Shown here in pieces: positions 10,617 through 62,965 of a stretch of 64,000 nt of DNA (positions are counted from its first letter, which is position 1; every line of letters starts with the position of its first letter). Location: the NCBI GenBank assembly GCA_964017235.1, contig OZ024938.1, forward strand, positions 47,032,332 to 47,096,331, read 5' to 3'. The position numbers and the translations under genes were made by a program. The notes beneath the pieces were generated by a model that was not told the origin of the DNA, did no database searches, and worked only from the letters and a program-made list of their open reading frames with translations. This DNA is from Sabellastarte sp. h YS-2021 (lineage: Eukaryota > Annelida > Polychaeta > Sabellida > Sabellidae).

Positions 10617-13600
10617 ATGATGGGCTTTACTTTTATCTTAGCACTTGTAAGTAATAGATTTGTTTGTTTTCATATTTAATTATCGGGAAAGAGATTAGCA
10701 ACTAATAAAATGGTAACAAGTTGATTACAGTAATGATGAAATTTATTGACTGCATGTTATATATTTTACTGTGTTTTATTCTTAATCTTTGAAACGGTAA
10801 AGGACTTAATGTTACTTATTGATATAATCAGAAATATTTTCTTTCATGTACCTGTTTATTAATCATATCAACTGAACCAATACCTGTCCATAAGTCCATA
10901 TAATTTCATCTGTTTTAAAGTGATTAAATATCATTGGTATAATTTTCATTAACATGGTCACTGCTATAAAGATTTTCAAAGACATATATTCAAGTTGCAT
11001 TACAATGCTTGTTGTCACATAAAACAGTTTGGTACTAGGGCTAGCTTACAAACAATATTGGTGAAGTCTTTCATTATCCATTTTTGTAAATATATATTCT
11101 TCTAGATATCAATTGTAACTTAACATTTTGTGGATGAAGCAATGCAACAAAATACTATTACTGGATATTGCTTGTAGAATAAGGCTTTTATATATAGGTT
11201 ACTGGTCAAGTAAGTGTCCAATTTGGAAAACAACGGACTGTTTACGAGGTTCGGAAGGAACTGACATATATATGACAGTAACGAGGCTATTAACCTATTT
11301 AAATTACACCTCTTCCTTAATTTATAAGTTTTAATATGTCGTTTAACATCATAACTTTTCATTTCTATATTCCTGGTGTGTATTTTTTTCGCTTTTTATG
11401 ATCAATTTATAAATGTAAAAGGTTTCTGTGGAAATGTGTTAGAAAGACTTCTACATATAGTCAAAATCACGAAGTGGCCAACAGTGAAAGATATTGGACA
11501 CTTTCAACAAAAGCTCGCATAGGTATAATTTAATGAGATGTAATGCCCGAGTCACACTGCAGGCAGGGGTGCCTATGTTTATCGGTATTTTATATAATGC
11601 CTGTTTTCTCCATATACTGCTGCACCATTGTGCCATAAAGTTTGCATAATGCAGCTTTCCTTGCTTTCCAAGACTATCTGGGCAGATGTTCAAAACTGTT
11701 CGAAATTCCTGCCTAATAGCTCAGTCACACTTTTCCAGTCATATATGTACATGTTGCTTTTCGCTTTGCGACCTCATTGATGCTCCAAAAAGAGACCCTT
11801 TATCTAGATTATAAACTTTGAAGAATGAGTGGCCCCAAATGTCTACACCATCCCTGTGGCTGTTCTGCCTTTTCTTCCACATCTGCGTTCCTCTTTCTGT
11901 TTCTCCAGTGAAGTTGAATGTTATATCTTATTTCAAATTAAATATTTGTAAGTAGGAAGTGTATGATTGTTGAAAGTGTTAAAGTATATATTAATATGGC
12001 CTTGTGGATATTAAAGAATAAAAGAATTTGCAATTTTTTAAAAAAATATTAATTACTTTGGCAGTTATAATTATCTTATCCACAGAAAAACATTGAAACC
12101 GATGATTTAATATATTAAAATACCTGTACCTTAAATTTAATATTCCTTGACTGCACCTTGAATTTAATACTCTTGTCATTTATGTATTCTAGAATGCAGT
12201 GTCAAGAAGGATAAAACTATTACCAAATCAGCTAGTCTAAACATGGAACTGTGGTTAAATAAATGATAATTCATTGATATCATGACACTGTATCAGCTGA
12301 CCTAAGTACTATTATTATTCTTTCACAAAAGTGTTTTTTCTGTATGAATTTTAGGTCTTTGGTAACCAGGTTATCTATGGAGCAAAAGGTGAGTTTCAGA
12401 ATTTGTTTTTAGTTACTGTTATTTTAAGGACTGGCCTGATTAATCTGAATTGGGGTAGCATTATAATTCTGTTTTAGATCTAGTCTTTATTTGGTGTTAA
12501 TGCTGCCCCTATGTTAAGCATAAATATTATGGAATATTTTTATTGTTCACAACAGTCACAATGTAACGATATTTTCTATGATTTCCTACCCGCCATATGT
12601 CACATTTGATCCAAATATCAGAACATATTAGGCCTCTGTATGTTATTTTGATATGCCCCAGTGCCCCTTAATATGGATACATTTTGCTGATTTTCTAAAT
12701 CAGGGAAATACAGATCAGAAAATAATTTGTTAAAATGTGACAGCGGCCCAAACACGTGTATTTCAGTGGAATTGGCAGGAAATATTCAATAAAATGGATA
12801 ATAAAAGTAAAAACTTTTGTATTAGACATATAAGGAAATAATATATCAGTCATGAAGTCTACAAAATTTTCATGTTCCACACTCGTATAGCCATCTCCAT
12901 TAGTGATATACCGTTGTATATGTTATCCTATCAGATATATAGGGGCCACGTTGGCAGAGTGGTAACACTCTGGCCTCCCACCTCTGAGATTGGAGTTCCA
13001 ATCCCGGCCTGACCTCATGTGGGAAAGCTGTTAGTTGCTTGCCGTTGGTGGGTAGTTTACAGTACAGAACCTTGACCAACTGTATGTACTGGTTTCCTCT
13101 GCCCATAAAACTACCCGTCGTGATGTGACCTATACAACGTGTTGAAAGCACCATTAAAACACAAATAATTCTAATTATTAGATACACAATAACATTTGTA
13201 GTTATTGTTACACTTTACAATAACACAGTTCTCGAAGGCTACATGGTTGCCAAGGATGGCTCAGTGTGCATCAAGACAGATGAAGTTTCGGGTGTTGTTG
13301 ATACCAGCAGTGTGTGCTGTCCAGTGGATGCTGATGAACTGGCCGGTTTATCCTGCACGCTGATTGCTATATATGATGGGACCACTGATGGTGTGTTATT
13401 ATGCTGTATATCACAAGCCAAAATCAAACTTAAATATAGTTCTTATTAGTGCTAACGTTAATTACCTTGTTATGCTGAGTATATAAATCTGAAAATAGTA
13501 AAATGCAATGTCATGTTTTCGTTAATTGACTATATTGCAATAATTAAGATTTGTCTTTGTCAGTAGCAACATATTCATAGGTGAGTTAGAGCAAATGCAA

Positions 13601-16600
13601 TGCAACATAAATTTGTCTGTAAATATAAGTACTCTCTGTGGTACCTCTTACCTGCTGGAACGGACATAAAACTCTAAATTTGATCTTTGATACAAAAGTG
13701 AAAGATAGGTACACTACAAATACTGCTTCAATGTCAATGCTGGGGAGGGAGAATATGCATAAGGATGGTACAATATGAATGAATTAATGAAGTGCAAACG
13801 GATTATTAATGGTTGCACTGCGCTTACACAAATTGTAAGATTGTACACACATTGTGGTTGTGATCAGCAGCTGATTATTTAACAAATGCTAGATAATTTT
13901 GATAGTGAAAAAAAAATTCAGTTTACCATTTCTTACTGTGATGACATCCTATGCTATATACTTCCCTGTGGTTCTTAATTCAGTCACACATCTTGCATAT
14001 AAATAAAGCAAAAAATAAGACACTTTCTCTTACCTTCATTTACAGGTCGATACATTATAGAAGATGCAGCAGATTTCTCCAAACAATTGAAATTAAATGT
14101 GGGTGCAGCAATAACATTCCCGGACACAGGGACAGAGGTAACCTTCACCCCAGAGGGTACCATGACACCATTGACAGGCATCACATCAGCTGATGTAATT
14201 AGCCTCACCACAATGTCAGAATCCGTTTATGTGGCTGATGTAGCTGATGATGTAGACAACACGGACTGTCTCCTGTTAACTGGAACGTATGTCCAAGGTG
14301 ATTCTACTGGTGACTGCACTGACCAGTTATGGTATTTTGTTACAGGTACTAAATTGTTACTTTCACAAGTTAGCATACTTATTATATATGAGATATGGAA
14401 TTAGTAACTTTTTTAGGATCTGGCAAACTATATTTCTAAAAACAATGGTAGTCAGTGAAGAGTGCCAGATACATTTTGAATCTCACATTTTATTTTACTG
14501 AAAGAACTCCCATCTTCATATGTTTCGGCATTAACTGTGACAGTAATCTATTGTGAATGACTTTAAAGTTATGGTATAATATAAAAACGAATTTCATTGC
14601 AATACGGTGAATTGCCACTTTTGTATACCTTGTAAAAGGGATCAGCTTTTGACCGACCAGAACTTATATGCAATCTTTGATATTTCCAACACAGTAAACA
14701 TCAACATTGATTTGTGATTGAATATCACCTTGTACAGGTTTTGATCTGTATAAAGTAAATATTTCAAGTTTGCTGCTGTGGTATGGCCGACAAGGAATGT
14801 GGTATAAAAAGCAGCACAGGCTGTGAAGGTGATAGAGTAAGAAATCTAAAATTCGCCAGGAATCTAAAATTCGCCACCTCTAAAACCTTAGTTAATTTTA
14901 TGAAGAAAATGATGTTTTTGTCCAAAAATTAGTATTTTTCAGTTCAAAAAGCCTTAATTTACTATCCAGTCAACAAATCTCACCACAATTCATTTATTTT
15001 ATTAGTATTTTCACATGTGGCGAATTTTAGATATGTGGCGAATTTTAGATTTCTTACTCTACCTAAAAACTCAGCCATTTCAATATTTGTTTTGTTATCA
15101 AGTTCTTGCGGTGATTAAGTAATTGCAAACACTGACTGAGATAAACAAGGAGGTTTTGAAATGTTTTTATCATATTTGCCATAAGCGATCTGTCATCGGA
15201 ATGAACAGAGTATTGTGGATATAAAGTAATACAGGAGTCTGGGGCTGATCTGTTTGTCAACTTTGACATCAGTCTTAATGTGATTCTAACTGTAGGGTAT
15301 TTTCTTGACTGTGCTGGCTGTGCCTTGGCTTGGTCTTGGCGCTTGCATGGTCTGATTTGAAGAGCACCATGGACTCCTGGATCCTAATAGCCAATGTGCG
15401 AATAGAAGCAAGTTGGACTAAGTTCATCATGGGGTGGGAGAACATCTGTCAATCTATGTTTATATTTCTGAAGTGTGATAGCTGTAACGTTCTGTGATAG
15501 ACTTTCATCTTATGAGTAGTAATGGTGTTCAAAAACCAGCATTTTATGCATTTACATCACATACATTTGTATTGTTTACAGTTCCTTGCACTGACAGCAA
15601 CTGCAAATTGTGCAATACAGGCCCAGATCTCTGCTCTGTGTGTGAAGTGGGTTCAGCATTCAATGAAGCCAGGACAGAATGTGTGGGTGAGTGGGCTAGC
15701 TGTTTATTTATGTAACAGACGCTAACATGTAAACAACTTTTAACTACTGTTGATTTTTGCAATTTTAATTTTGATCACCTTCGTTCTCAATAAATAACTT
15801 GCTTTTGCTATGTTCACTATTTTTTCCGGTCTATATCATCTCAAAACTTAGGCCTCATTAATCCAGTGATTTATAAGTTTGAATGTGATCATGGGTTAGA
15901 ATCCACTTCATGACAACAAATGAGAATCACTCAGGGCCTGTCGTTATATAACACTGTCTATTGAAAACACCCTTGGTGGGCAAAATGTGGCCAGAAAGCA
16001 AAAGTCTTGTCACTAGACTGGTTCCCTTGAATGACTCTTGCCTGATGGTTGAACAGATGTTTCTTGGTAATCAACATTCCTGCCATAAGATTTGTTGCAT
16101 ACTTTACACATTATCCTTTCGCTAAAATGCTTCGAATGCTTGTGTATGCATCATACTCAAATACAAATCCCAACTTATTCATTCTGGTGGATAGGACTAA
16201 ATACGATGCCTTTCAAACAACATATGACCCATGAGAATTTAAATATTTTGCCCTCATTGTTATATTTTTGGAGCTATCTCTTAAGCTAACTGAATCCAGA
16301 TGTTTCTGTATGTGTGAATTCAATAAACATTAATCTATTTGTTACTCTCGATCCATGGAATTGTCTATTTCGTAAAACAGGTAAAAAATTTGCCCATTTC
16401 ATTACATAGGCAAATGATTTGTCCATTTCATAAAATAGGCAATTTATCCAGTATTTGATTGCCCATTTCGTGCAATGGGTTAGAACTGAGTTGCCCATTT
16501 CTTGAAATAGGCAATACCATGTATGAAAAATAAAGTTTCATGCATACAAATATTTGATTACTTCAAAGCCACTGTAAACGTTGATTCACACATAATTTTC

Positions 16601-19600
16601 ATATTTTTATTAAAAGAGACACATTTTACTGTAAACATTTCACAAAATGTATGACTGAAAACAAGTACCTTAACCTTAAACCCCTTTGACTACTCAGGTG
16701 ACTTATCTGCCAAATGTGATTATAGTGACTGCTTTATAAACCTATTTTGTAAAGTTTCATAGAAACAAGTATAATCAAAGAACCAGCCTAACCTTTGTAG
16801 CCATAGTGCCCAATTGGAGTCACACCCCACGACGTGCATAATTGAAATACATTTACACACTTACTGTAAATCTTGACCCTACATATAAAAAAGTTTGATA
16901 TTACTAATTGATTAAGTTGTACCATGAAAATAATTTACTGTTAAAATAGGTATCTTTATAATTTTTTCCATTGTCTGATGTTTAATTGCATTCATGTTAC
17001 TATGAACAAAAATATTACATAATTCAAAGAACTGAGACAGAAAAACACCAGTTATTTATCTTTCGATTTACCTTTATCTTTTAAAATAACAGTTTAAACA
17101 TTTCGTACATATTTGTAGGCCTTTTCTTTTGTGTATGTTTGAAAATATAATTTTAGATTGCCTATTTTGTGAAATGGGCAAGCCACAATTGAATAAATTG
17201 TCCATTTCAAGAAATGGACAGGACAATTGCTTATTTCACAAAATGGGCAAAAAACTTCTTTTTATTTATCATTTTTATTGACACACAAGGGGTACAATTG
17301 CAAAATGTTTTAACAGAAGTACATGTTTGTCCATACATACTCTATATAATGGTTTACACATTCGCACAATAAGAAAATAGATTAGAAAGTTGCTTTGACA
17401 GCTAGTGAATTTAAATATTCCCTTACTGTTAATAGTACAATAAACACAGATACTTGAAAAAGAAAACTAGATGTAACTCAGATCCTCTGGACAAGCAAAG
17501 AAAGCAAACTCCAATTTTTCTTACATTTTTGGTCTGAAAGTGAGATAGTTGACAGATATGTTGTTTTCTTCGTATTTTTGTTTTTGAAAAATGTCAGAAA
17601 ACCAGTGAAATTGAGAGGAGTATTATTCACCAAAGATTTATAGATATACAGTTGAGCAAGCAAACACAAGATCCCAAGTTGCTTTTTATTAACAAGTCCC
17701 AGTCTCAGTTTTAGCGTTAAAAGTAAATGAAAGACCCACAGTTTCTTGAACACACTGCTTAATTTTTTGCCAGAACTCATGTGTAAAGGAACACTGGATA
17801 AAAACATTGGGTATTGTCTCCTGTGAATTTGTACAGAAGCAACAAAAATTGTTCTTTGATTTTTTCATCTTATACAGGAGACTTTTTGTTCCCAAAATTT
17901 GGTTCACAATTCTATATTGCATGTAAATTATCTGGTTATCTTGAATAAGTTTAAAGCAATGTTTATAGATTGTTTTCCAATAGATTTCTATGATGGCCAG
18001 CCAAACAGGTTTGAAAGTCGGGTCGTGTAGATGTATAGTAAAAAAATTTTCAAGTTGGCTTTTACGCGATGGTACTCCAGAAAATTAGTCTTTATTTTTT
18101 AAGATGTTGTTCATTCATCTAATGAAAGGAATCTACCGTCACAGAATAGGTCGGCAATATATATTATACCTTTACTGTACCAGTCATAACAGAATACAGG
18201 AACAGTCAAAATGAGTGGATTATACCAAAGAGGGCTATTGAGTACTTTATCATTCTGATTTTTTGGAATGCTATCTATTACTTTGGCCCATGATAATAAA
18301 GTACATTTCCAAAAATTGTTGGTGATCTTGCTTGCTAGCATTTTATGCCACAGAGAATGCATATTGAAACACTTCTCATAATATGTTAAATTAAAAAGAC
18401 ATAAGTCATACCATGATCAATGTTCTTGCATTAGCAAACGTCTTATCGAGGTGCATTTCAAACTACATATGAATTTTTCTAAATTAATCATACCGAGTCC
18501 TCCTCTCATATAATCACTACACAACTGCTTCCTGCTTATTTTATCAGCTTTGCAATCACAGATATTTTTTAAAAAGTAGACTGCAGCTTGTTTATGACAC
18601 TTTGATCCGGATTTGGGATAAACATAAACAAATGATTTAACTTTGATAAAATAAAGGTTTTTATCACAGTAATTTTACCCAGAGGTGTGAGGTATCTTTT
18701 TTCCATACACTAAAGGACTTGTTGATGTCATCAAGTATTGGATCATAGTTTAGGTTAATTATTAAATCTAAATCAACTAAGAATTTAATTCCCAAAAGAT
18801 TGAATATGTTTTTTCCCTATATCAGACCTTTTGAAATATGTATTGTTTTTACAATGCTCTTTCTTACCTATCCAGATTATCTGAGTTTTTTTTCTGTATT
18901 TACTGTATTTTGTGACAATGTACCAAATATTTCTATACTGTTTAACATTGCTTGGAGTGAACTCATAGTGCCATCTAATATGAGAATGGTGTCGTCTGCA
19001 AATTGAGTCAATTGAATTTCATTGTTATTTATTTTAATTCCTTTTATTGCTTCATTTTCGGAGATCAATATTTGTAGTATTTGCGCATCAAGAATGAACA
19101 AATAGGAGGAGATAGGATCTCCTTGTCTACAACCACAATAAATAGCAAAGGGTCTGAAAGGAAACCACATTGCAGGACATAGCCAAGAATATTAGTATTG
19201 AATAATGCAATCCATTTAATGAGTTTAGGTCCAAAACCTATTAGTTTTAGGTATTGTACAGAAAGTCCCATGATACTGAGTCGAAGGCCTTCTCAAAATC
19301 TATAAGCATGAGTAGTCCTGGAACGTTTTTTTCTCAGTGTAGTGAAGAATATTGTAAATTAGACGAGAATGCTCTCCAATAAATCTTCCTGCCACAAAGC
19401 CTGTTTGACTGTTAGATGTTAGAGTATCTAGAACAGTTTTAATTTATTAGCAATGGCAGAAGATACAATTTTATATATAACATAGAGTAATGAAATAGGC
19501 TACCAATTTTTTAACAGAGTTCTTGATTTATTTCCTTTTGGTATGCAAGAAATAACGCATTGTCTCAAAGAGATGGACTTTTTTCCTGTTTTATAGGACC

Positions 19601-21211
19601 AGTTATATGCTCGTAAGACAAAATCTTTGAGCTTAATCCCCAAAAATTCCACAGGAAATCCATCTATACCTGGGGCCTTACCATTTTTCATACCATGAAG
19701 GGCTTTTAAAATTTCAGTCATTGTTAATTCACATTCACGTTGATCAGACTCTTCTCTATTTACTTTTGGGTATGTTGAATTTTTCAGTACGACAGCCAAT
19801 TCTTTGTCACATATTTATTTTGCAAATAAATGCTTTTTTACTTCTTTCAGAATGCTATTTTGTTCAGCTAAGATTTGGCCATCTAGTTTTTCCAAAAGTT
19901 TTATAGTTTTTTTTTCTATATAATTTTTATTTTCGAGTGATGTTAAGTGCTTTAACGGTTTCTCACCATCTTTTAGCCAGTTTGCCCTCAAGTGTACCTT
20001 TATAGCCTGGATTTTGTCTTCTCTTTTATAACCTGGATTTTGTCTTCTTATTTTGTTTTCTCTTCTTTTGGCTTGTTTTTTATAAGTTTTTTCAAGGTAT
20101 TCAGTATCGGTTTCCACTTTATGTTCAAGTTCATTTAACCGCTTTTTAAGAGCACTTGCAAATTTTATTGTTTCACCTCTAATTTTGAGTAATAAACCTT
20201 CAAGAAATGTATCATCAGCTATGTTCAATTGTAGTTCAAAATCTGGAATTGTAGCCATGTTAATTGTATATAAGCCATCACTGAGTGTGCCAGGTTTTCT
20301 CTATCAATTAAGTTATTATCTGGAATAATGTAGTTTTTATTTTTGAGGAGGGAACAGTTAAGCTTTCATATTCCATGAATCTACAAATACATAACTTTGT
20401 GATCACAAAAGAGTGATCAGTCAAAAAGGAGTCTATTATCTGATATTCAAAATTTTTTTGAGAAGGGCTGCTACTGCTCTTGAGTTTTTTTGAGTCCTGC
20501 TATAAAATATTCTATTTCCATACACTTTTTATGCGTTTCGCATCAGACTCCGTCCAGTGTGTATCTTCCAAACAGAAAATTGATGCATCAATGTTTTCAA
20601 GATCATTTAAAACATCAATAAATTTGTTTTTATGTTGCGAGCCTTGACAATTTGCAGACAACAGATCAACTTCACTAGACATGGTAGAAGTTAAGAATCG
20701 AGTTCACTCGAGAAGTAAATAATGGATTATGATTGGTATTGTTAAATCTATTCACATTTAAATTAATATAAACAGGATCAAATACTTAAAGTATGGAATA
20801 ACGAAGGTACATGTCATGAACTTGTGACTGTATGAAGGGTGCAATTAACATGGTAATCATTAGCAAATTTATAATATCATTGAAACAAACATGGATTAGA
20901 AGGATATTCTGTGATGTGAAAACCCAGTGGTTTAACCTTTTCCCAGAAATGTATCAAGTAAAAAACTATCACTAGGATTCGACCTTAGCAAAACAAAACT
21001 GGTTTATATGAAAAACCAATTCTGTATTGACATTATAATATATTGGCGAACTTCTGCAAAAATAAAAAAATTAGGTCAAATTCAGACATAGTCTGTTCAC
21101 CCCTGTGATATAACATAAATATACCTAAGGATGCTCTATGAACTGTGAAATGGATATTATTGAGGTACCTTATTAGTGTTTTATAACTTTATTTTATACA
21201 AAGTTATTGTG

Positions 21212-21248
<37 letters not shown>

Positions 21249-23424
21249 AAAATATTTATCCCAATTGATATTTCCTGTCTTGGGGGTGGGGTCTTGGAAA
21301 TGAACATAAATATACCTAAGGATGCTCTATATTTTCCAAAATGGTCGAATAAAGGAATATCAATGGTAAGGGATATAATTGATGATCAATGGAATGTACT
21401 AAGCCCTGAAGATCTTAAGAGGAAATTTGAATTTAGCTTTAACATTTTAGATTATTATAGACTAAAATACCTTATGAAAACATTTATCACTACTTACAAG
21501 GAGAAATGACTCAATAATTATCTGAGGCCCCACTGTCCATTTCACCTAAAGATACTTCATAACTCCAAAAAGGGATGCAAAGACTTTTATAACATTTTAT
21601 TGGAAGGAAACACCAAGTACCCAGTCCCTATAACCAAATGGAAAGAGCTAGTCCTTCATAGTAAATACTCATGGACTCAAATTTATAAAATCTGCTGTAA
21701 ATCTATCAAAGACAATAAGTTCATCTGGTTCCAGTTTAAAATTTTAAACAATAAGTTAGATACACAGTATTACCTTTACATAATTAAAATCTCGGATGAT
21801 ACACTTGTAGATTATGTAGTCAACATCCAGAAACAATCTTGCATCTTTTCCCAGAATGCACAAAATCCTCACAATTATGGAGAAATGTCAAGCATTGGGT
21901 TTTTACTAGATTAGGTATGAATCTAGGTTTTGATAATGGAGTTAAAATACTTGGTTGCAATGACAATAATGAAAACTTCTGGCCATTAAATTTCATGCTG
22001 ATAGTAAGTAGATATTAAATCTACTGGTGTGCGAAAAAGGTTGTCAATTGAATAATTTCCATCTTCCAAGGAAAAATTTTAAAAAGGCTTAATGAACAGA
22101 AAACTTCATCATATATGAACAATTCAAATCAACTTTTTGAAAAGAGATGGAGTGTCTGGCAAAACATCTTTATTGACACCTAAGGTTAGATTATTCACAA
22201 TAGAGTATAGGTACTTTCTTACTCCTGGTCTGTTTCCACACATCTTTTTGTTAATGGTGGAATGATCCTGAACACACATCAGATGGTCAGCCACCTTCCT
22301 GTGTAAAACTTCCTGTGTTTATTTTTCAGGTCAATGTAAATAAAAACAAGACTAAAATTCTAGACAAAGTTTGTTTTATTTTTTTGTTTACTTCTATCAA
22401 GTAATCCTTATTTGGATGAAAGACTCTTAGGAGTATTGCTGACACCAGCAAATGAATGTTTGAATTCTGGTTTCTTATTTCAGGGAGTAATATTTTATAT
22501 TTATCTTGTATCTCTGAGCTGGTGGTTGTGGATTGAGGAGGAAGTTGTATATGATTGGCTTCCCCTTTTCTTTGTTTGTCCATGTACCATTGCCAAGTGG
22601 CCTTTGCCAAGTAGTAGTGCCACTTTATAGCCTTTTAAATTCAGATTTTTAATTTTTTGCCAGGTTGTCAATAGTAATACTTGGATACACTGGAGTAACT
22701 GCCCTTGTTAAATATCTATAGTGTTTTCCCATGGAGTCCACAATAATTATTCCTTCTTTTCTGTCCAAAAAGGTGCCAGTGCATACTGAAAAAAGTATAG
22801 TAGGGGTGAGCATGTACAAACAAGTTATTTGTACTTTGCTTTTGAGTGTGAATCAATTCAAAAGGTGAAGATAGAACAACATATTCTTAGATAACTTTTT
22901 TCATAAGAAATATTAATAATAACTTGTACAAAAATTACAAATGTCAGTTTAACATAAGAAACACTTCAATTCTTGGATAATTTGGCTCTTATCTCTTCCA
23001 AAATCTGACCCATAATGTTGGAAGATTTGGCCTATTTCGTAATACTCAAAATACTTGCCTGTTTCACGAAACGGGCACTTTCATGGATTGGATTTAACAT
23101 ATACATACATAGCAATGACATTTTGCTGTTTACATGTTTATGGAATCGCATATTAGTATGTTTTGATAGACCTAATCGGGAAGAACCCTAATTGACTGTT
23201 GCCACTGTATTATAGGTGTGGTTTTTTGGCATTCTACTTCTGGGTATAATTTTTTCTGTTTTATTACAGTCCGTGCAGCAGCTGCAGCCACCACAACAGA
23301 GGGTGGTAGAGAAGAGGGATTTGACATAGATGCTAGTGAAGAAGAGAGAAGTGGTGTTTTACTTGGCAAGGCTTCTCTTATGGTGGTGATTGGATTGGCC
23401 TCTTTCTTGCTGATTCTCTTCTGA
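10617..23424 (+). CDS. Gene 1: signal-peptide, Cys-rich surface protein with hydrophobic C-terminus (unknown family)
   Basis: Six exons: 10617-10646, 12355-12388, 13229-13390, 14046-14345, 15582-15686, 23270-23424. They give 261 residues with every junction GT-AG and intron phases 0,1,1,1,1. Residues 1-20 are a signal peptide split over exons 1 and 2. Exon 3 (22-76) has four Cys and the motif DELAG. Exon 4 (76-176) is an acidic, beta-rich segment ending GTYV...LWYF. Exon 5 (176-211) holds six Cys spaced C-x4-C-x2-C-x6-C-x2-C-x12-C. Exon 6 gives an Ala/Thr then acidic stalk and a 23-residue hydrophobic tail ending at the stop, which suggests a GPI signal or a tail without cytoplasm. No N-glycosylation motif is visible. 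I do not recognise the family. The six-Cys part resembles half a furin-like or growth-factor-receptor Cys module. Gene 2 downstream is its paralogue in opposite orientation. The first of two consecutive ATGs is taken as start. Confidence 0.85.
11540..11760. repeat. Possible MITE fragments in gene 1 intron 1
   Basis: TAATGCCCGAGTCACACTGCAGGC near 11540 resembles the Harbinger-type ends seen elsewhere in the window. A second phrase near 11713 (TAATAGCTCAGTCACAC) is in the same orientation. No matching inverted end was found, so this is weak. Confidence 0.25.
12942..13170 (+). repeat. tRNA-derived SINE, family A
   Basis: The tRNA-like head is GGGGCCACGTTGGCAGAGTG followed by GAGTTCCAATCCCGGCC. 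A body of about 150 bp follows (GAAAGCTGTTAGTTGCTTGC, then GTACTGGTTTCCTCTGCCC) and an A-rich end. It lies about 60 bp before exon 3 of gene 1. Further copies are at 61874-62110 (-) and, older, near 37385-37640. Confidence 0.8.
14833..15061. mobile_element. 229-bp MITE with 45-bp terminal inverted repeats
   Basis: It begins TAGAGTAAGAAATCTAAAAT and ends with the exact reverse complement. Each arm carries the word ATCTAAAATTCGCCA twice. A TA dinucleotide bounds both ends, consistent with a Tc1/mariner-type non-autonomous element. It lies in intron 4 of gene 1. Confidence 0.85.
15850..16030 (+). repeat. Possible tRNA-like SINE remnant
   Basis: An A-box-like TTAATCCAGTGATT is followed by a B-box-like GGGTTAGAATCC. 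The remaining sequence is degraded and I found no second copy in the window. Confidence 0.3.
17258..20700 (-). mobile_element. L1/Tx1-like LINE, near full length, degraded
   Basis: On the - strand the order is as follows. An APE-type endonuclease start at 20682 reads SANCQGSQHKNKFIDVL and, further on, ends in LEDTHW. A basic linker follows (20258-19815). The reverse transcriptase (19799-18877) shows GKAPGIDGFPVEFL, the GCRQGDPISSYLFIL block and the catalytic FADD. A C-terminal region (17922-17478) with CFCTNSQETI comes last. The 3' end near 17258 carries AATAAAAATGATAAATAAAA. Many stops and frameshifts make it inactive. It sits in gene 1 intron 5 in antisense orientation. Confidence 0.85.
18877..19799 (-). 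pseudogene. LINE reverse transcriptase domain, broken
   Basis: Contains recognisable RT blocks: the KAPGIDGFPVEF motif, a GFGPKLIKWI segment, GCRQGDPIS and the catalytic FADDTILIL. The blocks are spread over different frames. It is part of the LINE at 17258-20700. Confidence 0.85.
21215..21242. repeat. (TA)n microsatellite
   Basis: About 28 bp of uninterrupted TA between the two LINE fragments. It is flanked by two copies of a 27-bp direct repeat (ACATAAATATACCTAAGGAT and onward) at about 21112 and 21304. Confidence 0.9.
21290..22180 (+). mobile_element. 3' part of a second L1/Tx1-like LINE, opposite orientation
   Basis: Frames at 21294-21509 and 21600-21914, and their continuation to about 22010, read like the C-terminal region of L1/Tx1 ORF2. 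Recognisable parts are WTQIYKICCKSIKDNKFIWF, FKILNNKLDTQYYLYIIKI, then His/Cys-containing ETILHLFPEC and SQLWRN in neighbouring frames. It is a 5'-truncated fragment with frameshifts and has no poly(A) tail that I can identify. Confidence 0.7.
22320..22850 (-). pseudogene. SGNH-hydrolase-like remnant, probably from a mobile element
   Basis: On the - strand the frame near 22790 reads IIIVDSMGKHYRYLTRAVTP, followed by PSITIDNLAKN. This resembles the GDS block and following strand of SGNH/GDSL-type domains. Further on KGYKVALLLGKGH sits where such domains have GTND, and 22540-22340 gives LLPEIRNQNSNIHLLVSAIL followed by LIEVNKKIKQ. Stops and one frameshift separate the parts, and the catalytic Ser block reads VDS rather than GDS. 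Domains like this are carried by several retroelements. Which element it came from is not clear; it lies inside the palindrome-ended element. Confidence 0.5.
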
Positions 23425-23433
23425 GGCATAATC

Positions 23434-24801
23434 TTAACAAACTGGGGCAAAAGGGTCAAACACAATTCTAAGCATTTTCAAATGAATAGTGGAATAGTCT
23501 ATCATATTTGAATTACAGCGAAGCATTTTACACTATTAATAGATGTACTTTAAAAAAAAAAATTCAAAATGTCCATATGTTTAAGCATTTCTTAATTCCC
23601 CTTTCACACTACAGGCAATATAGGCTGTGGTTATTAGCATAAGACAAAATGCCCCTGTCCTTTAACTACCGTTGGATGTCCTTTTGCAAACTTGTGATAC
23701 AGTAGTCCGCAATCCCATTCCTGGAGCAATCTACAGGCTCTAGATTTCTCACCGTGACCTTCTGCAGATAAATTTTTCATACAGTATCTGAAGATGACAT
23801 CTGTGGTTTATATAAGGTTGTGACTCAGTTGTGTTACATTAGCATGTGTTCGTCTAACAGCTACCAAAGGTGAGTTGAGGTTATTGAAGGTTGCCTCTCA
23901 TAGAACAATGTTTGTGCTCCTGTGGTCACCCTACTGTTATTCACGGTTACCCATCATGTCCCATGCATGTGCTACCTTATGAATACTCCATATCTATGAA
24001 GATATGAGGCACCCTGGGAGGCATTTCCACCACCAAGAAAAACTTGTAACCACAGCGTATATAACCCGTAGTGTGAATGAGGCATTAGAATTTTGTTGAT
24101 CAATTAAACCGGAAAATAGAAGTGAAACATTAGACTTTGAAAATGGACAAAACAAAATTTTGTTTCTTTCTTAACTTTAATCTCAATAGAGATAATTTGT
24201 ACTCCTCACTGTTGTAAATGTATATTTTGACAGGGAAGTGACATTTAATCGAAAAGTTAATTTTGTTAAAATTGTTTAAATATTCCAACTTATAATGTTC
24301 ATTGATATTGTATATTTGTCTTTGTATTAACTTTCTGAAATGTTTGATCAATAACGATGATAATCCAGCACTTAAAGAACTTCTTGTAGATTTGATTGGT
24401 GTTTGTTTGAAAAATCAAAATGAGTTTTAAACAAAAAAGCAATAAGGAACATGCCAGTCTATTATGTGTTGTCATATTATTGTATGCTTGTCGGTCACCT
24501 GAGAACATTTTTGTATAAGGTATATGTGGCTTTTGGATAGCCTGTGAATGATATAAGTCTGCTAAAAACTTTATTTTTTTTATCTTTTATCTTTTCTTTT
24601 ATCCACTTGAAGAAACTACTATCAGCTACAAAATAAATCTTCCCTGTTTCTTATCAGAGTCAAAAGGTTAGTCAGTGAGACAGATATCTTTTATAGCTGC
24701 TCTGACTGTTGGTTTTTCTCCAATAATGTTTTCAAAATCAAGCAGTGGATTTTTATTGTTCTTTTGTTTCAACTACAATTATATCTAATTATTAGCAAGA
24801 G
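23434..24801. repeat. 1.37-kb tandem duplication, copy 1
   Basis: Begins TTAACAAACTGGGGCAAAAG ten bases after the gene 1 stop codon and is followed immediately by a second, highly similar copy. The shared content includes a Harbinger-type MITE (23596-24084). The likely 3' untranslated region of gene 1 lies within it. No AATAAA signal stands close to the stop. Confidence 0.9.
23596..24084. mobile_element. Harbinger-type MITE inside duplication copy 1
   Basis: The left end TTCCCCTTTCACACTACAGG and the reverse-complement right end TGCCTCATTCACACTACGGG form the inverted repeat. The flanks are taa and tta. The ends match the autonomous Harbinger at 14-6733, so it was probably mobilised by that family. 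Confidence 0.75.
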
Positions 24802-26204
24802 TTAACAAACTGGGGCAAAAGGGTCAAACACAATTCTAAGCATTTTTAAATGAATAGTGGGGTCTTTTTAAACCCTGTCTATCGTATGTCAATTACATTG
24901 AAGCATTTTACACTATTAATAGATGTACTTTTAAAAAAAAATTCAAAATGTCCATATGTTTAAGCATTTCTTAATGCCCCTTTCACACTACAGGCAATAT
25001 AGGCTGTGGTTATTAGCATAAGACAAAATGCCCCTGTCCTTTAACTACCGTTGGATGTCCTTTTGCAAACTTGTGATACAGTAGTCCGCCATCCCATTCC
25101 TGGAGCAATCTACAGAAATTTTAAAGTGTTTAAAATTTCTGGCTCTAGATTTCTCACTGTGACCTTCTGCAGATAAATTTTTCATACAGTATCTGAAGAT
25201 GACATCTGCGGTTTATATAAGGTTATAACTCAGTCATGTTACATTAGTATGTGTTCGTCTAACAGCTACCAAAGGTGAGTTGAGGTTATCGAAGGTTGCC
25301 TCTCATAGAACAATGTTTGTGCTTATGTGGTCTTACCATCACCCTACTGTTATTCACGGTTACACATTGTGGCCCATGCATGTGCTACCTTATGAATACT
25401 CCATATCTGTGAAGATATGAGGCACCCTGGGAGGCATTTCCGCCGCCAAGAGAAACTTGTAACCATGGCATATACAACCCGTAGTGTGAATGAGGCATTA
25501 GAATTTTGTTGATCAATTAAACCGGAAAATAGAAGTGAAACATTAGACTTTGAAAATGGACGAAACAAAATTTTGTTTCTTTCTTAACTTTAATCTCAAT
25601 AGAGATAATTTGTACTCCTCACTGTTGTAAATGTATATTTTGAAAGGAAGTGACATTTAATCGAAAAGTTAATTTTGTTAAAATTGTTTAAATATTCCAA
25701 ATTATAATGTTCATTGATATTGTATATTTGTCTTTGTTATTAACTTTCTGACATATTTTATCAATAACAATGATAATCCAGCACTTAAAGAACCTCTTGT
25801 AGATTCGAATGGTGTTTGTTTGAAAAATCAAAATGAGTTTTAAACAAAAAAGCAAAAAGGAACACGCTAGTCTATTATGTGTTGCCATATTATTGTATGC
25901 TTGTCGGTCACCTGAGAACATTTTTGTATAAGGTATATGTGGCTTTTGGATAGCCTGTGAATGATATAAGTCTGCTAAAAACTTTGCATTTATCTTTCCT
26001 TTTACCCACTTGAAGAAACTACTATCAGCTACAAAATAAATCTTCCCTGTTTCTTATCAGAGTCAAAAGGTTAGTCAGTGAGACAGATATCTTTTATAGC
26101 TGCTCTGACTGTTGGTTTTTCTCCAATAATGTTTTCAAAATCAAGCAGTGGATTTTTATTGTTCTTTTGTTTCAACTACAATTATATCTACTTATTAGCA
26201 AGTG
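24802..26204. repeat. 1.4-kb tandem duplication, copy 2
   Basis: Same order as copy 1 with scattered substitutions, plus an extra run of about 31 bp near 25114 (GAAATTTTAAAGTGTTTAAA). It ends at AGCAAGTG, followed by TTAA. The junction between the copies is also TTAA, so the event may have used TTAA microhomology. Confidence 0.9.
24975..25497. mobile_element. Harbinger-type MITE inside duplication copy 2
   Basis: Left end TGCCCCTTTCACACTACAGG after taa, and right end ..CCCGTAGTGTGAATGAGGCA before tta. It is the duplicate of the MITE at 23596, so the insertion came before the tandem duplication. Confidence 0.75.
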
Positions 26205-27910
26205 TTAATATTTTAAAATATCCCCTTACTGCAGGGGTGGTATTCACTAATATGCATTTAGATCAGATCAAATTTGAGAATAAAGGGGTTTTTTCTAGTG
26301 AGCCAGCAGATCATATAGCAAAGTATGGATCCCTTGAGCTACAAAGATTAATTATTTGATGTGTTTGTGCAATTGATGACATAAAATCTGCCATAAATAT
26401 ACAGTAATTTGCACGATGTAAAAAGAGTATCATTAATCATCGTCCAGAATTTTTTAATGATCAGTATTTGGATTTTAAAAAAAAAATATGGATGAAAACA
26501 GCATTATTGTACAATCCAAAATGCACCAAAGTAGTCAGGAATAATTACTGGTCAGAGAGGGAAAAGAAGTTGAAGAATGCATTGAAAAGTTCCTCTGTCT
26601 CTGTAGTGGCTGATGAAAAGATCCGCCTTGATATGAAAGTTAATCCATCAAAGTACATGTTACAAATTTAATCCAAACTTTAATCAGAAAATCAGATCAA
26701 ATATTTCGTGAATACAAATCTTAGTTGATCTAAAAAATCTGATCAAAAATTGATCATTAATTACTTAATTACAGCTGAAGCTCAAACACCTAAATTTGTA
26801 TTATATAGGTCTTAACATTTTTTTCACAAAAGTAATTATTCTTGAACAATGTGTGCCGTTTCCTCCTACAAAAAGTGAACCATTCAATTTTTCAGTCATG
26901 AGACCAAATATATAAATGATTAAGTGTTTTATTATTATCCATGATATTAATTTTACAAATTAGATTTTTGAATGTTCTGTTTAAATGCTTTAGGCCTTTG
27001 CTGCAAAATAAATCATTCAACTCTGCCAACAAAGACAATGTGTTTTTCTTGTATCATCTGACTCAACATAAAATGAGTCAGTCAAGAGGCATAAACTTGA
27101 TTCTCCAAAGCCTTTTTATGGATATGATATAATTCAGTGTTATGCCTATCCATAAGTTTTAAGATTCACTGATAGGATTTTTCGAGAGCTTTAGTTAAAT
27201 ATCATCGGTTCTTTTTAACCATCTATGACTGAGTTTTTTTCTTACAAGAACTAGATAACAATTCAACCATTCAAGTCTCCCAACAATGAGACATTAGGCA
27301 GACCAAATATTTTGACTGCCATTAACTGCTCAAAATCGACATTATTAGCTCTTTAAATATTAAAGATGGGTTGATCTCAATTTACTTAAAATGCTCCATT
27401 TGCATGCATTGCCTTGAAAAGTTACAATATCAAAGGGAGACCATTCATTTTCAATTTGACATTTTTAATTTGGGTAGCAGTCCTTTCTTATAATTTTAAT
27501 TATAGTTTAGATGCTGTTTGCATTAAATATTTTAAGTATATTTCAGTACTGACTGGTAAAAAGATTCCATCATTTTAGTCTTGGATTCGAGCCCAGGTCA
27601 TGGAAGAATTTTCATGGAAGGCCTTGTCTTGATATTGACCACTAGCTATTGAAAGGGACAGACATCCAAACTTTAACCTACACTGCTACACCATTCAGCT
27701 TGCTTTATGGACTTTCTGTTGCAAACACAAAAATGATAGTTTTTGGTGATGTTTGTTCCCAACATTTCACAAATACATTTTGGCACTTCAACAATGCTTC
27801 CAGTCTATTCTCCAGGCTTCCATTCCAAGATTATATTGGATGATGTTTGACACACACACTTCAAGAATGGTTTCAATGCTGTCTTCAAAACATGTTTCTG
27901 TTGCTTGTTG
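26205..27910. other. Spacer between the convergent genes 1 and 2
   Basis: AT-rich, with only short random-looking frames. It has a possible tRNA-like SINE fragment near 27575-27650 on the - strand (A-box-like TAGCTAGTGGTCA, B-box-like GGCTCGAATCC). Its right part probably includes the 3' untranslated region of gene 2. Confidence 0.5.
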
Positions 27911-30900
27911 TTATAAATATTTCACTGCAACTAGTTGTATGAGAGCTAACAGCCCAACACGAGAAGCTGTCTCTGAACTGCAACCGTTCGTGGGAGTGGC
28001 AGCCACAGAACCCTGTGTTGAGGAACTTGCTGGTGTGGTTGTAGTTATAACTAAAAATACAACAGTATTGTGTGTTTATCTTGCAAATTTTTTGTGACCT
28101 TTATTCAAGTTAATATAATGGGACAAAAATCACAAATTATTTTCTGGTGCCTAAAGTAATATGAAGATTTGCAAGAACAGTACTTTTTCACCACTTTTGC
28201 CTTGTTTGTCTCGATTCTGGCAGCATTTCCAAATATGGTTAATGATCCATGCCTTTTTACTCTGCTAGTAGAAACATTAAGGAATGCAAAAATATTATTA
28301 TACTAAGCAAGGAAACAGGCAAGGTGGCAGTTAATTGGCAAAAGTGGCTTCTTTCCGGGCAAAAGGGTTATGTCATTTGCTTTACTATTCGCAATGATAC
28401 AACACAGTGTATTGAAGGCGACATAAAACCTTGAATTGTCACAATTCCAGAAATGTTCAAAAACACATATATACGTACAGGTACATACAGATAGAGATAT
28501 GTATATACATATTATCATGGGCAGTATTTGACTAAAGGCCAGGGAATAAAGACCAGAAAATATTTTTTTGTTCCTTGGTATTACTTTACATGGATCATAA
28601 GCACAAAAAGTAAGAGTTTCTCATCTTTTGAATATGGATTCTGTTTGCAATAAAGTCGTTACAAAATTGTACTAAACTAAAAGAAATGAGTAAATGTTCA
28701 GGGGCAAAAACCATTGCATATTAATATGTATTAAAACAAATGAGCAAGTGTTCAATAGGAAAAACATCAGCTGCCAAGATTCGAATTTGGGACTTAATAC
28801 ATCTTGGTCCACCCTTCCAGCAGGCGTCCATAATGTCTGCTAAAGGGCTCATGAGATAATGTTTGGTTGGCAGGAGTTGTTCACTTCAACCATCTGAGGT
28901 AAGCCAAAACCAACAACTAGTTCCAAGGTAATGTCAAGGTCAAGCTCACTTCACATTGAAATATGTGGTTTATATGTGGTTTATTTACTTGTTAGTACAG
29001 AAGAATTGAAAGCCTAAAATGTTACAGAGTAATATTTTAAAAGCCCCCAAGCCCAGCTCAAAGAAGGAAGGGATGATTTTGGCAAAAATGGTAGATATAA
29101 TAGATGGAGCCAGAGAAGCACTTTTCAGGTATCTCTATCTTGCAGAGCTTCTCCATAGCTCATGGGATATGATATTGTGGATTTTCATGTTATTATCAAA
29201 AGCAAGGGTGGCACCTGAGTGCCTGAAGGTGTAAGGTGTGGAAACCGTAAACTCTGGGGGTAATGTTTGAACTTCAAAGCAACCCCAATATGTGTCCCAA
29301 TGACCTGGCTGTGTGGGTAGAATTTATTGGCAAATAGAGGGGCAGATGGTGAAAGAGGTCTTCATACAAGGAGGCCTGTACGGGCCTTAACTGGGCAAGG
29401 GAAATCATTATCTCTGGCTGGTAGTAGTGGTGGGATTTATGAAGCTGAAGGGTTCTAGTCCATTTGACCAGAAGGTGAGCACCCGGTGGAGTAAATATGA
29501 GATCCTGCCTGAGAAAATGAAAATTCTGACTGAAATCTGGAAGAGCCATGTGGGACAATGTTGGACATTGCTGTAAGAAATATTGCCCTGCATGATATTG
29601 GGTCAGAGAGGATATCAGAGGATAGGAATTTTAAGTTGTGACGTCAAAATAGAATTACCCACCCAAGTAGTGATGTTGTGACAGAATGAATCACAGTACT
29701 GATAAAACATATCTCTGGTTTGCGGTTTGTGCCTGTTTTTAAAATAATTATGGATACTTTCGGCTACATTTAAATATTGGATACTTATACTTCACATACC
29801 CAAACAAGGTTTATGAATAAATAAATGTCATTTCCCTTTACATCAAAGTATATTAAATCTCACCTTCACAAATTTTCATGTCTTCATTTGCTTCAGAATT
29901 AGCAGCACAAGAATTACATAAAAAGGCATCAACTTGACATTCATCACAATTTTCCACTTGACATTCAACTGTGAAAAAGGAAACACAGTTCAAGTGTTAA
30001 AATAAAGCATCAATGTGTAAAACTAATAATTTTTTTGTCAAATTCCCATGGCATGTGCTGTATCTTGCTTCAATGAAGGGATACTTTAACTTTCCTTGTA
30101 AGAATAATAAACTTCAAACTGGGGGTGATAATTGTTTTTTTTTTAAATTGTTTTCAGAAGCATGTAACCTATGTCCATGAAATAACGAGGTTACAATTTT
30201 TATCGCATGTCCTTCACATTTGTGGTTAACCTAACAAGGTGGGAATTAATTTGGGAAGTAAAGTAAAATGTTCAAACAACTTACCTTCAATAAAGTACCA
30301 TTTTGGTGGACTGGCATTGCTAACTGAGTAGGTACCATCATGACCTAAACCATCTGATACATCAGCACCAACTAGCTGTATCAGAAATGCTTGGTTTGAT
30401 GAAGTGATGCTATCCACTGAATTGGCAGTAGCTGTGAGAAGCAGGGATCCACTGAACAGATGAACTTGTGTCTCTGTACTATCAGTTACAAACTCAACAA
30501 TTTGGCCGGTTTGGAGTTTCATCACAGATGATTGGGCCTCTAACTTTTTGAGTTTGAAGGTGGCTAAGAATAAAATATAATACATAACTGCACGGTGGTA
30601 AAAGGAGTAACAATGTATTTATACATCATTGCTTTGATAATATGGAATATTTATAGAAGAAATATTTGTGTGTTAATAATACTGATTGATATTACTGGCA
30701 CGAGTTACTTGTGCAAAGGTATGATCAAATAGTGATGGTGATTGATATGAGTAATTGGAAAAAAGAAGAATATAGTATTGAAGCATTTCTACAAATTTCT
30801 GAATGACAAACACTCGTATATTTCCTGTTCTTTTATTCTATTTGAGATAATAATGCGATATTGGATAGAACCATTCTATTCCAGCTGACAGAGATAGTGC

Positions 30901-33726
30901 ACTCTATGACAGAAACAATCCTCCAATTTTATCAATAAAGGCAAAAGCCTTAGTTCAAACCCATGACCTCGGGTGTTACCCACTACATCACCTGACTATG
31001 GAGATTATTCTGAACTTATTCATGTTTCACTCACTTCCTGACGTTCCTTCCACCAGCAGCAACTTCACACAGCTGCCTGCTAAGTCCTGTTGCGACATGG
31101 AAGTGGGGCTGGATGCACTCATAGCATCTAAACCAAGACAAGTGGTGTTGTCTTCACTTACCAAATAAGCAGAGACTACTGCAAATAAAACATGCATTTT
31201 TGATCACATAGTGCTACAACTGTGCACAGTATGTGCACAAATAGGATCTCATTATATATTACCAGGTAGTGGCTTTTAACTGTTTCAATTTATAAACAAA
31301 ATATGTCACTCGAGTGGCACATTCTTATTAAATTTATGACATACTCTGACAAAGTGAAACTTTCAGATATCAGTTTATGATAATACTGGTAGCAAATGCT
31401 GACATTTAAAAAGTCCTAAAATCTGAAATAATAATCCATGAAGCTATATGTGTTTTATGAAGCTTTTCTAAATGTGCATAAGTCTCGGTATAATGGACCA
31501 TAAAGGAAATATAGTGTCCAAGCGGATATAATTCAGAAAAAAGTACTTGTATTACTATATCATACGTAGCACCTTGTTATTTATATAACCCAGCAAAAAA
31601 AGTACTTTTATTACTATATCATACCTAACAGCTTATAATCAGCTTGTAGTTTTATAGGATGGGTTTTCTTTATTTCCTGATTAATAATAAACTTACCCAA
31701 ATCACCAGACTCCCCAGTTGTTGATCCAAACAAACAGCCCTGAAAATGAATTGGTGAAACTGATCAGTTAAGTGCTAGCTATCCCTCATTCAGCAACAAA
31801 ACAGAACTGTTATTTATTTCAAATTGCATAATTTTCTAATGATACATCACCAAATGACATATGTTTGATTGCTCTCCATATTTCAGGCGATTTGTGAACT
31901 TTTCTGAATTGGATTAGAGGCTTCAGCTCACATCCTATCTTTATGAAACAGGCTTTATGACATGAGTCACAATCATCCCGAAACCTCACCGTTCTGATTT
32001 TTATTTTAAAAAATCAGATGAATTTCATAGTGTGGCACAGAGAAACAAAACCCACAGTAACGCAGAAATACATTGAGGCTGCTGGATGGATAAGCACGAT
32101 TCCTACTTTGGTAGATACAATCCAATATTTTTACTCCCAGTAAAATGGATGACGTGTCAGCGATAACTTTGCTCATGTAGAAGCTATTTGCTTAGTGATC
32201 TGTTTTTCATTGTTTCATTGAGGCTTGTAAGCCATCAAAATGTAGGCAAAGATTAAGGTATTTCTTGCTTAACACAAATTATAGCTTGATGCAAGACCAT
32301 AAATTTAGAACACCCCAGCCTAAAATATAACAGGAAATGCTTTTTGGGCTATTAATGGGATACAATGTGATGTATTTCCATCACCCTTAAAATATTATAT
32401 ATAATAACAGCCATATGGTTGTTCTTTACACATGTAATTCCTAAAATGGAACATTGTTGCAAAGTCCCAAAATCTGCTAATCCCTTCGTCCTAGAAGGAA
32501 GCTATTTAATCAATAATTTCTGGAACATAAGAATATTATCATATCTTATTTATTGGTGACCTGAATTGCCAACAGTGGTTTGAGAGTATCAATGGGACCA
32601 GCAGATAAAACTCAAACCCTATTAATTGGACAAACATAGAGTTGAAAACATATGAGATATGCAAAATGAGACAACAATGATTATCCTTTGAATGCAGTAA
32701 CACAGAACCCATATCTCGTCAAAGTAAAAATATTTTGAGCACTGAAATATGTGTGATAATTAATGTGGTCTCAGCTCAGACCAGGAACACAATGCACTGA
32801 TCTCAGAAATGGAACTAACATGACTGCCTTGTCAGTCTGCACCAATGACCTTGCAATACATGCAGATACCCTCCTATTTTGATTTTGACCATTTCTCAAA
32901 CTCGTATTGGATTAATAGGCATAGTCGGCATGTAACACAAAATCCTTCAACTAAAATGACTAGAACTTCCCTAATTTTGCTTTAATTTTAAAATTTTGCT
33001 TCAATTTTAAAGAGGGTGATTGGATGCTACTGGATGGTTTGGATGCCTCCCAGCCCTTAACTGTGTGGTAAAAGGCAACCCAAAGAAGGGTATAGCATTT
33101 AACAAGAACATTTGTTTCACAGAGTAAATGGAAGAATTCAACATCTAACCAAGGGACAGGGCTTAAAACAAAGTCTTAAGACACATAAAACAATTATAAA
33201 AAACAGAAGGCGACCGATTTTAAAACATCAATATGTATGAAAGATGAGAGGGTATTACTAGATGATAACACAACTACACTTTGATAGAGTACACAAGCTC
33301 GCTTTGGGTCCCTGACTCTGTAAAGAGCATCATAATCACTTCACATGCCAGCTATATTGCCCCCAAAAAGTCAGGTATTTTGTAACTGACTATATGACTT
33401 CAATCTATGAACCTGGATTTCAATCCAGTGCTTGAGCATATGTGGAAATTACTGATTGCCTGTAACAGTATGATTCTAACTGTTAAGCTCTTTTTAATTT
33501 TTACAGCCTTGCTGACCTGTAGGTATAGAAAACATCTAGAATTCATGCGGCATAATTGCATCAAGCCAGTTTAAAATATTGCATGAAACAATCACAATGT
33601 CCTGGTATAACATACATTTTGAACCAGTCAAGAATATAGGCGAGTACTTATAAACTAAATGTTGCCACTTACATAGACAATGTACCACAAAGGAAATAAA
33701 ATCATCTTCGCATTTCCTGTTAACAT
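27911..33726 (-). CDS. Gene 2: paralogue of gene 1, Cys-rich surface protein with Thr/Ser stalk
   Basis: Exons in reading order: 33726-33673, 31739-31697, 31178-31035, 30563-30285, 29968-29864, 28050-27911. They give 254 residues with GT-AG junctions and phases 0,1,1,1,1, the same as gene 1. The leader starts MLTGNAKMILFPLWYIVYG; a second in-frame Met at 33705 could be the start (247 residues). Exon 3 carries Y-x-V-x-x-D...C...DLAGSC like gene 1. Exon 4 ends GTYSV...KWYF. Exon 5 is again exactly 105 nt, with C-x4-C-x2-C-x6-C-x2-C-x12-C. Exon 6 begins with a Thr/Ser/Pro-rich stalk and ends in a roughly 15-residue hydrophobic tail at the stop, consistent with a GPI signal. Possible N-glycosylation sites are NTT and NAS. 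The family is unrecognised; the cell-surface location is inferred. Confidence 0.85.
28985..29640 (-). pseudogene. Tyrosine recombinase remnant (catalytic domain)
   Basis: On the - strand 29558-29274 reads HLLVKWTRTLQLHKSHHYYQ and onward. The next frame (about 29250-29060) reads YTFRHSGATLAFDNN, then HELWRSSAR and YLKSASLAPSIIS. The RH-x-GATLAF and H-x-LW blocks match the catalytic part of tyrosine recombinases such as those of DIRS/Ngaro/Crypton-type elements. Stops and frame changes show it is dead. It differs in sequence from the recombinase of the DIRS element at 50839. It lies in intron 5 of gene 2 in the same orientation. Confidence 0.6.
30945..31003 (-). repeat. tRNA-like SINE head fragment
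   Basis: On the - strand, GATGTAGTGGGTAACACCCG followed by GGTCATGGGTTTGAAC gives A- and B-box-like words. It lies about 30 bp beyond the donor of exon 3 of gene 2. Confidence 0.4.
31535..31640. repeat. Short tandem duplication, about 70-bp unit
   Basis: AAAAAGTACTTGTATTACTA recurs as AAAAAGTACTTTTATTACTA, followed in both by TATCATAC. It lies in intron 2 of gene 2. Confidence 0.7.
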
Positions 33727-62359: not shown

Positions 62360-62965
62360 TGAGTAAGGGGGGTAGCATGTTTTTAGCAACCAGATATAAT
62401 GCTTATAGCTATTCTGTTTATGTCATTGCCACCTATGGTATGGTGTGCCAAAATTTGAGCATTCCCAATGAAATTTTGAGAAACTTATGGGGTAAAAGGT
62501 ACGCACAGTATTACTTGTTTGAAAGGTCACATCAAGAGATACCATGTTTTAGCAACCGGATGTAATGCTAATAGCCATTCTATTTTTGTCATTGCCACCT
62601 ATGTTATGTATTTGCCCAAATTTCCGCAGTCAGATGAACTTTTGAGAAACTTATGACATGAAATGTGTGCACAGGAGTACTTTAGTGATCCCATTAAGGG
62701 GTGGCATGTTTTGCCTACCTGGTGTAACGCTGATAGCTATTCTGCTTTTGTTATTGCCACCCATGTTATATATAGCACAAATTTTAGCATTACGGATGAA
62801 CGTTTGAGAAACTTACTGGGTAAAATATGTGTACAGGTGTATGTGAGTAGATGGTCGTATCAAGGGTAGCATGTTTTTAGCTACCTGATGTAATGCTAAC
62901 GACTATTATATTTGTGTCACTGCCACCCATGTTATGTATTGTCCAAATTACAGCTTTTATTGTAG
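62360..62965 (+). repeat. Tandem 162-166-bp repeat, about 3.6 copies
   Basis: GGTAGCATGTTTTTAGCAAC-like words start at about 62372, 62538, 62700 and 62865. Each is followed by GTCATTGCCACCTATGTTAT and TTTTGAGAAACTTATGGGGT. Open frames at 62359 and 62663 come from the repeat and are not genes. Confidence 0.85.

Follow-up and report, generated by a model that had tools for sequence, protein, structure and literature searches.

Two tail-to-tail genes as members of a larger multigene family of putative small cell-surface proteins

Two genes that face each other tail-to-tail, 4.5 kb apart, raise the question of whether they form a pair of their own, as the initial annotation had it, or belong to something larger, and of what their proteins might do. 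The window, by which we mean the whole 64,000-nucleotide stretch of DNA that was analyzed (G000:C19:47032332-47096331), comes from a genome with 1,785,957,881 bases in 647 contigs. Both gene models were rebuilt by hand and by script from the sequence alone (Table 1). Gene 1, on the plus strand, has six exons that encode a protein of 261 amino acids and ends with a TGA stop at 23422-23424; alternative acceptors for its exon 6, at 23279 and 23282, are likewise in phase. Gene 2, on the minus strand, also has six exons and encodes 247 amino acids counted from the ATG at 33705, and an in-frame ATG at 33726, seven codons before it, would add seven residues. The clean six-exon splicing first proposed for both genes is present in their sequences: neither gene has an exon that is closed or out of phase, every intron is bounded by GT and AG, and both genes show intron phases 0,1,1,1,1. 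Equally present are the 105-nt length of exon 5 in both genes, its cysteine spacing C-x4-C-x2-C-x6-C-x2-C-x12-C, and the motifs said to be common to the two, namely Y-x-V-x-x-D..C..DLAG/DELAG in exon 3 (GYMVAKD..C..DELAG in gene 1, AYLVSED..C..DLAG in gene 2) and GTY..WYF in exon 4. Gene 1 and gene 2 look like real genes.

Table 1. Exons of the two window genes, with the part of the protein that each encodes.
Feature	Position	Strand	Description
Gene 1 exon 1	10617..10646	+	Putative signal peptide, start and core (MMGFTFILAL); phase 0 donor gtaagt
Gene 1 exon 2, 34 nt	12355..12388	+	Putative signal peptide, end; phase 1 donor; nine C7/C11 copies share the block and both its splice sites
Gene 1 exon 3	13229..13390	+	N-terminal domain, first part (GYMVAKDGSVC..DELAG..C)
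Gene 1 exon 4	14046..14345	+	N-terminal domain, second part (..DCLLLTGTY..C..LWYF)
Gene 1 exon 5, 105 nt	15582..15686	+	Six-Cys module
Gene 1 exon 6	23270..23424	+	Ala/Thr-rich putative stalk, hydrophobic C-terminus, probable GPI signal, stop; tail like C7 copies L040, L042, L046
Gene 2 exon 1	33673..33726	-	Putative signal peptide; ATG 33726, or 33705 in frame
Gene 2 exon 2	31697..31739	-	Putative signal peptide, end
Gene 2 exon 3	31035..31178	-	N-terminal domain, first part
Gene 2 exon 4, 279 nt as in L052	30285..30563	-	N-terminal domain, second part; both conserved Cys replaced
Gene 2 exon 5, 105 nt	29864..29968	-	Six-Cys module
Gene 2 exon 6	27911..28050	-	Thr/Ser-rich putative stalk, hydrophobic C-terminus, probable GPI signal, stop

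The window also holds repeats and retroelement sequences. Between their 3' ends lies a direct tandem duplication of approximately 1.4 kb with 92% identity (23434-24805 and 24802-26208), and inside the 7.6-kb intron 5 of gene 1 there is a LINE-type zf-RVT zinc-binding fragment (17689-18084, minus strand, E 2e-7). Farther along the plus strand, a retroelement at 52453-55391 encodes reverse transcriptase and RNase H (Pfam RVT_1, E 2e-15). The frame that follows it resembles a DIRS-like tyrosine recombinase by eye and had no Pfam match. At 40946-41387, 55946-56321, and 62370-62954 there are tandem repeats, whose units measure 146, 187, and 166 bases, respectively.

Relatives of the two genes were found well beyond the window, and all member counts given here are lower bounds. 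With exons 3-5 of gene 1 as the query, 32 places were found at E <=1, of 36 candidates scored. An exon 4 consensus matched 14 of the 16 places that were scored, namely gene 1 itself, nine on C7 (24.50-25.36 Mb), three on C11 (15.78-15.93 Mb), and one at C19:6.0 Mb (L053, E 5.4e-5). The close exon-4 loci number 13 or more (gene 1, the nine on C7, and the three on C11). Five more distant members comprise gene 2, L052 at C19:46.98 Mb (E 2.9e-4 to gene 2), L053, a locus at C4:60.3 Mb (60.34 Mb; E 1.7e-9 to L053), and one at C14:23.0 Mb (22.98 Mb), where exon 3 matches L052 at E 4.7e-7 and an exon-4 match (E 6.1e-5) has two stops inside. Profiles made with neither L052 nor gene 2 recovered exons 4 and 5 of L052 (E 2.1e-5 and 9.5e-4) and of L053 (E 3.8e-12 and 1.1e-6); in the profile search, exon 3 of these two loci was not above noise (E 0.034, behind a chance match, and 0.35, respectively). 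The six-Cys exon alone was found at C8:106.1 Mb (L054, E 2.6e-6), C3:42.9 Mb (L055, E 2.9e-5), and C19:49.3 Mb (L056, E 5.6e-7). The repeated module type was found in numerous places along C4, C7, and C19, among them C19:46.99-47.015 Mb, a short distance upstream of the window, and L052 and further module-bearing stretches lie 28 to 59 kb before gene 1. On C4, clusters of six-Cys or exon 4 matches at 7.56-7.57, 11.88-12.53, 28.15-28.24, and 60.2-60.4 Mb may be related gene arrays; the matches near 7.56 Mb are weak (E 0.6-0.7). Since the family has 13 or more close members plus five that are more distant, among them gene 2, the description of the two genes as a pair is not supported. Judged by sequence, gene 1 and gene 2 are members of a larger multigene family that is spread over several chromosomes.

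These relatives also provide a measure of whether the resemblance between the two window genes exceeds chance. The exact cysteine pattern of exon 5 turns up twice when the window is read in all six frames, and it appeared in none of 20 first-order Markov versions. When profiles of the C7/C11 copies, which contain no window sequence, were scanned against 2121 window reading frames, the gene 1 exon ranked first and the gene 2 exon second for exons 3, 4, and 5 alike. The E values were 2.4e-17, 1.9e-45, and 1.6e-10 for these exons of gene 1 and 0.0058, 0.13, and 0.24 for those of gene 2, which are weak singly; once L052 was added to the profiles, the latter fell to 1.2e-5, 2.1e-6, and 4e-5. Gene 2 was not found at E 1 by a single-sequence search with gene 1. 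A separate module scan was not exhaustive and its filter missed exon 5 of gene 1, and the profile scan is the better test of the window.

The arrangement of exons was compared in 15 genes, namely the two window genes and 13 copies (L039-L047, L048/L049, and L050-L052). The script used here sought phase-1 borders only, and the copies were compared from exon 2 onward; exon 3 of L039 fell outside the stretch analyzed. The order of exon 3, exon 4, and a six-Cys exon 5, with phase-1 borders, was found in the window genes and in copies. As these exon borders recur in the copies, the gene models are supported without RNA. Exon 4 measures 300, 297, or 279 nt in 13 of the 15 genes: 300 in eight (the L047 donor is ambiguous), 297 in the three on C11, and 279 in gene 2 and L052. 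In L041 and L045, exon 4 is closed in its 5' part, and both were counted as decayed. An exon 5 was identified in 12 of the 15 genes, with a length of 105 nt in 11 and 108 nt in L052; it was not found within approximately 10 kb in L041, L045, and L047. The closed exon 4 of two copies and the missing exon 5 of three indicate that decay is also at work. Nor is the layout universal, since the exon-4 match of L053 is split between two frames approximately 2.2 kb apart and that on C14 carries stops. By blastn upstream of exon 3, exon 2 and its splice sites recur in 10 of 14 loci (gene 1, six C7, and three C11), in the position that the initial annotation had given, and no conserved exon 2 block was seen in L040, L045, L052, or gene 2.

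What varies most visibly among the relatives is the number of modules. In the stretches analyzed, extra phase-1 six-Cys exons of approximately 93-114 nt follow exon 5 in many copies: among those on C7 there are three in L039 and L040 and two in L042, L044, and L046; on C11 there are two in L050 and L051 and one in L048; and L052 has one. None were seen in the stretches analyzed for L043, L041, L045, and L047. Three or four six-Cys modules are consequently present in five of the nine C7 copies, and one is present in each window gene. This difference in number among relatives indicates that symmetric phase-1 exons were gained or lost, and the earlier idea of symmetric phase-1 modular exons gains from the finding that the six-Cys exon type has multiplied. 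In three of the nine C7 copies (L040, L042, and L046), the last exon is Thr/Ala-rich with a hydrophobic end like that of gene 1; in the stretches analyzed, no last exon was found for the other copies. A probable last exon of L055 (5070-5312 in the reverse complement of the locus) is Asp/His-rich before a hydrophobic tail and possibly metal-binding.

Searches for an identity of these proteins returned little, which, as far as Pfam goes, agrees with their initial description as unrecognised. In Pfam, nothing scored above cut-off and only chance-level matches were obtained for both window proteins, 15 exon-4 sequences, and 12 exon-5 sequences. NCBIfam gave no match for two strings of the C7 copy L040, and PADLOC gave none for gene 1. 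The best E value in a sequence search of the PDB was 0.089 with profiles of exons 3, 4, and 5 and one module string, and 0.62 with gene 1 alone. Prokaryote and viral collections, searched with a reach of close relatives only, yielded nothing related to exon 4 of gene 1 at E 1e-3. In the part of the literature seen, which is mostly bivalve-oriented, a family of this sort was not found described, and this is not proof of absence. A structure model of the two window exon 4s only was unusable (mean pLDDT 39.6, pTM 0.26). By eye, exons 3-4 resemble a ricin-type beta-trefoil in their Cys-Leu..Cys..W motif ends and their length of approximately 150 residues. This candidate found no support: none of the 15 exon-4 sequences had a ricin-type Pfam match, and a comparison of the exon 3 and exon 4 profiles for the internal repeat of a beta-trefoil gave an 11-column match only, with a probability of 2.2%. 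The exon 3-4 domain, at approximately 150 residues and unclassified, is a candidate new domain.

Our preferred reading, to which we assign a probability of about 60%, is that both genes come from a family that is tandemly expanded and diverging fast, that arose by repeated duplication, and whose products, small cell-surface proteins, would be GPI-anchored and would bind a ligand through the exon 3-4 head. Expanded families of this general sort are common in animals. In both window proteins the N-terminus is hydrophobic by eye, and by eye and a hydropathy filter a C-terminal hydrophobic stretch reaches the stop with nothing after it. A tail of this kind, lacking a cytoplasmic part, suits replacement by a GPI anchor, and the type of anchoring that was proposed at the outset is compatible with both ends as judged by eye and by the hydropathy filter only. 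The hydrophobic N-terminus would send the protein into the secretory path, after which the tail would be lost and the protein held on the outer membrane by its anchor. The six-Cys module or modules and the Thr/Ala-rich stretch may form a stalk and so raise the exon 3-4 domain above the membrane, where it could act as an exposed variable head for a microbial, gamete, or self ligand. Duplication and loosely constrained change would then diversify what the head binds. Most likely, to go by these sequence features, the proteins serve diversifying surface recognition or adhesion.

The main rival, which we consider possible but not probable, makes them loosely constrained coat or matrix proteins: they would be abundant GPI-anchored constituents of a structural or mucosal coat, and their change would reflect lost constraint rather than selection for recognition. 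The rate of sequence change bears on this. For gene 1 and the intact C7/C11 copies (gene 2, L052, and two broken copies were left out, and pairs with dS outside 0.05-1.2 were dropped), median dN/dS was 0.65 (exon 3, 41 of 45 pairs used), 0.50 (exon 4, 53 of 55 pairs), and 0.60 (exon 5, 22 of 45 pairs). Among usable paralogue pairs, dN exceeded dS in 1 of 41, 0 of 53, and 3 of 22, respectively. Such values among paralogues are fast change under constraint and not proof of positive selection. The suggestion that the genes evolve fast consequently stands insofar as paralogue dN/dS is raised (medians 0.50-0.65) and falls short insofar as it is rarely above 1. A ratio that is high yet below 1 in most pairs is what a coat protein might show, and the two broken copies, the Thr/Ala-rich stalk, and the loss of the exon-4 cysteine pair in gene 2 agree with it. 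However, the fold is under strong constraint. All 15 rows retain Y81, W95, Y96, and F97 of exon 4, and 14 of the 15 retain its cysteines C74 and C90, the exception being gene 2, which has neither, consistent with the loss of one disulfide; the six cysteines of exon 5 are kept in 12 of 12. Strong divergence around a cysteine frame, as initially noted, is borne out by this retention beside an exon 4 identity of 25% between gene 1 and gene 2.

A bolder form of the preferred reading is that exons 3-4 are an undescribed recognition domain and that the clustered, GPI-anchored proteins make up a diversifying receptor repertoire for immune or for self or gamete recognition, with specificity set by the domain and reach by the number of six-Cys exons. 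We regard this as quite unlikely. If this reading were correct, the family would offer a compact model of how invertebrate surface receptors diversify without somatic rearrangement, in which one domain and the number of spacer exons are varied in clustered copies on several chromosomes. Even if this is a family of coat proteins, the searches made here against Pfam, NCBIfam, and PDB sequences returned no match for its exon 3-4 domain.

A more specific role in gamete recognition or allorecognition would put the proteins on sperm, egg, or haemocytes as GPI-anchored molecules with a single domain that have diverged strongly. Families with such roles diverge fast, and clustered duplicates, wide divergence, and a variable module number would be in keeping with one of them; the rarity of dN above dS between paralogues is not, and on balance we find this role improbable. 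Could the two window genes instead be pseudogenes or unexpressed remnants that are no longer used? Gene 2 sits on a long branch and has lost two conserved cysteines, and gene 1 carries the LINE-like fragment in its intron 5. However, the six exons of each gene are open, in phase, and bounded by GT-AG splice sites, and we think disuse very improbable.

The preferred reading has the family arise from repeated duplication along several chromosomes, and the relationship of gene 1 to gene 2 bears on this point. In a tree of 17 rows, gene 2 grouped with L052, 78 kb away from it (support 98/98), and gene 1 fell among the C7/C11 copies (83/95), with its position inside them not resolved; gene 2 and L055 are long branches, and their exact places are unsure. 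In exon 4, identity between gene 1 and the ten intact C7/C11 copies is 53-66%, against 25% between gene 1 and gene 2, and the genomic DNA of gene 1 and gene 2 gave no blastn match at E 1e-3. The tree grouping, the identities, and the missing blastn match make a mixed cluster likelier than one inverted duplication as the source of the tail-to-tail layout. The inverted duplication originally proposed would fit the orientation and 4.5-kb spacing of the genes, their common exon phases, and their exon 5 length, but with each gene grouping elsewhere (gene 2 on its long branch) and their DNA unmatched, a true pair from one such event is extremely unlikely.

Of known systems, the closest are furin-like or growth-factor-receptor repeats and the variant-specific surface proteins (VSP) of Giardia; the cysteine spacing of exon 5 is probably of the furin-like/VSP type. 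The VSP model (PF03302) matched two of five module strings of relatives below cut-off and none of the other three. The two were a string of the C11 copy L050 (E 0.002, 17.5 bits) and one joined from the three loci L054, L056, and L055 (E 0.0076, 15.6 bits), against a cut-off of 31.4. None of nine cysteine-fixed shuffles of the L050 string matched VSP, and the 12 single exon-5 modules had no furin-like or VSP match in Pfam. The sub-threshold matches and the probable furin-like spacing suggest, without proving, a furin-like/VSP-like module, and that the six-Cys module is wholly novel is doubtful. Two differences separate it from these systems: the scores obtained here lie below the Pfam cut-off, and each window gene has one module in place of a long array. 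Small GPI-anchored Cys-rich surface proteins, such as those of the Ly6/uPAR and three-finger kind, resemble the predicted products of the window genes in size, putative signal peptide, Cys-rich ectodomain, terminal hydrophobic tail, and clustered copies, and differ from them in cysteine pattern and exon layout.
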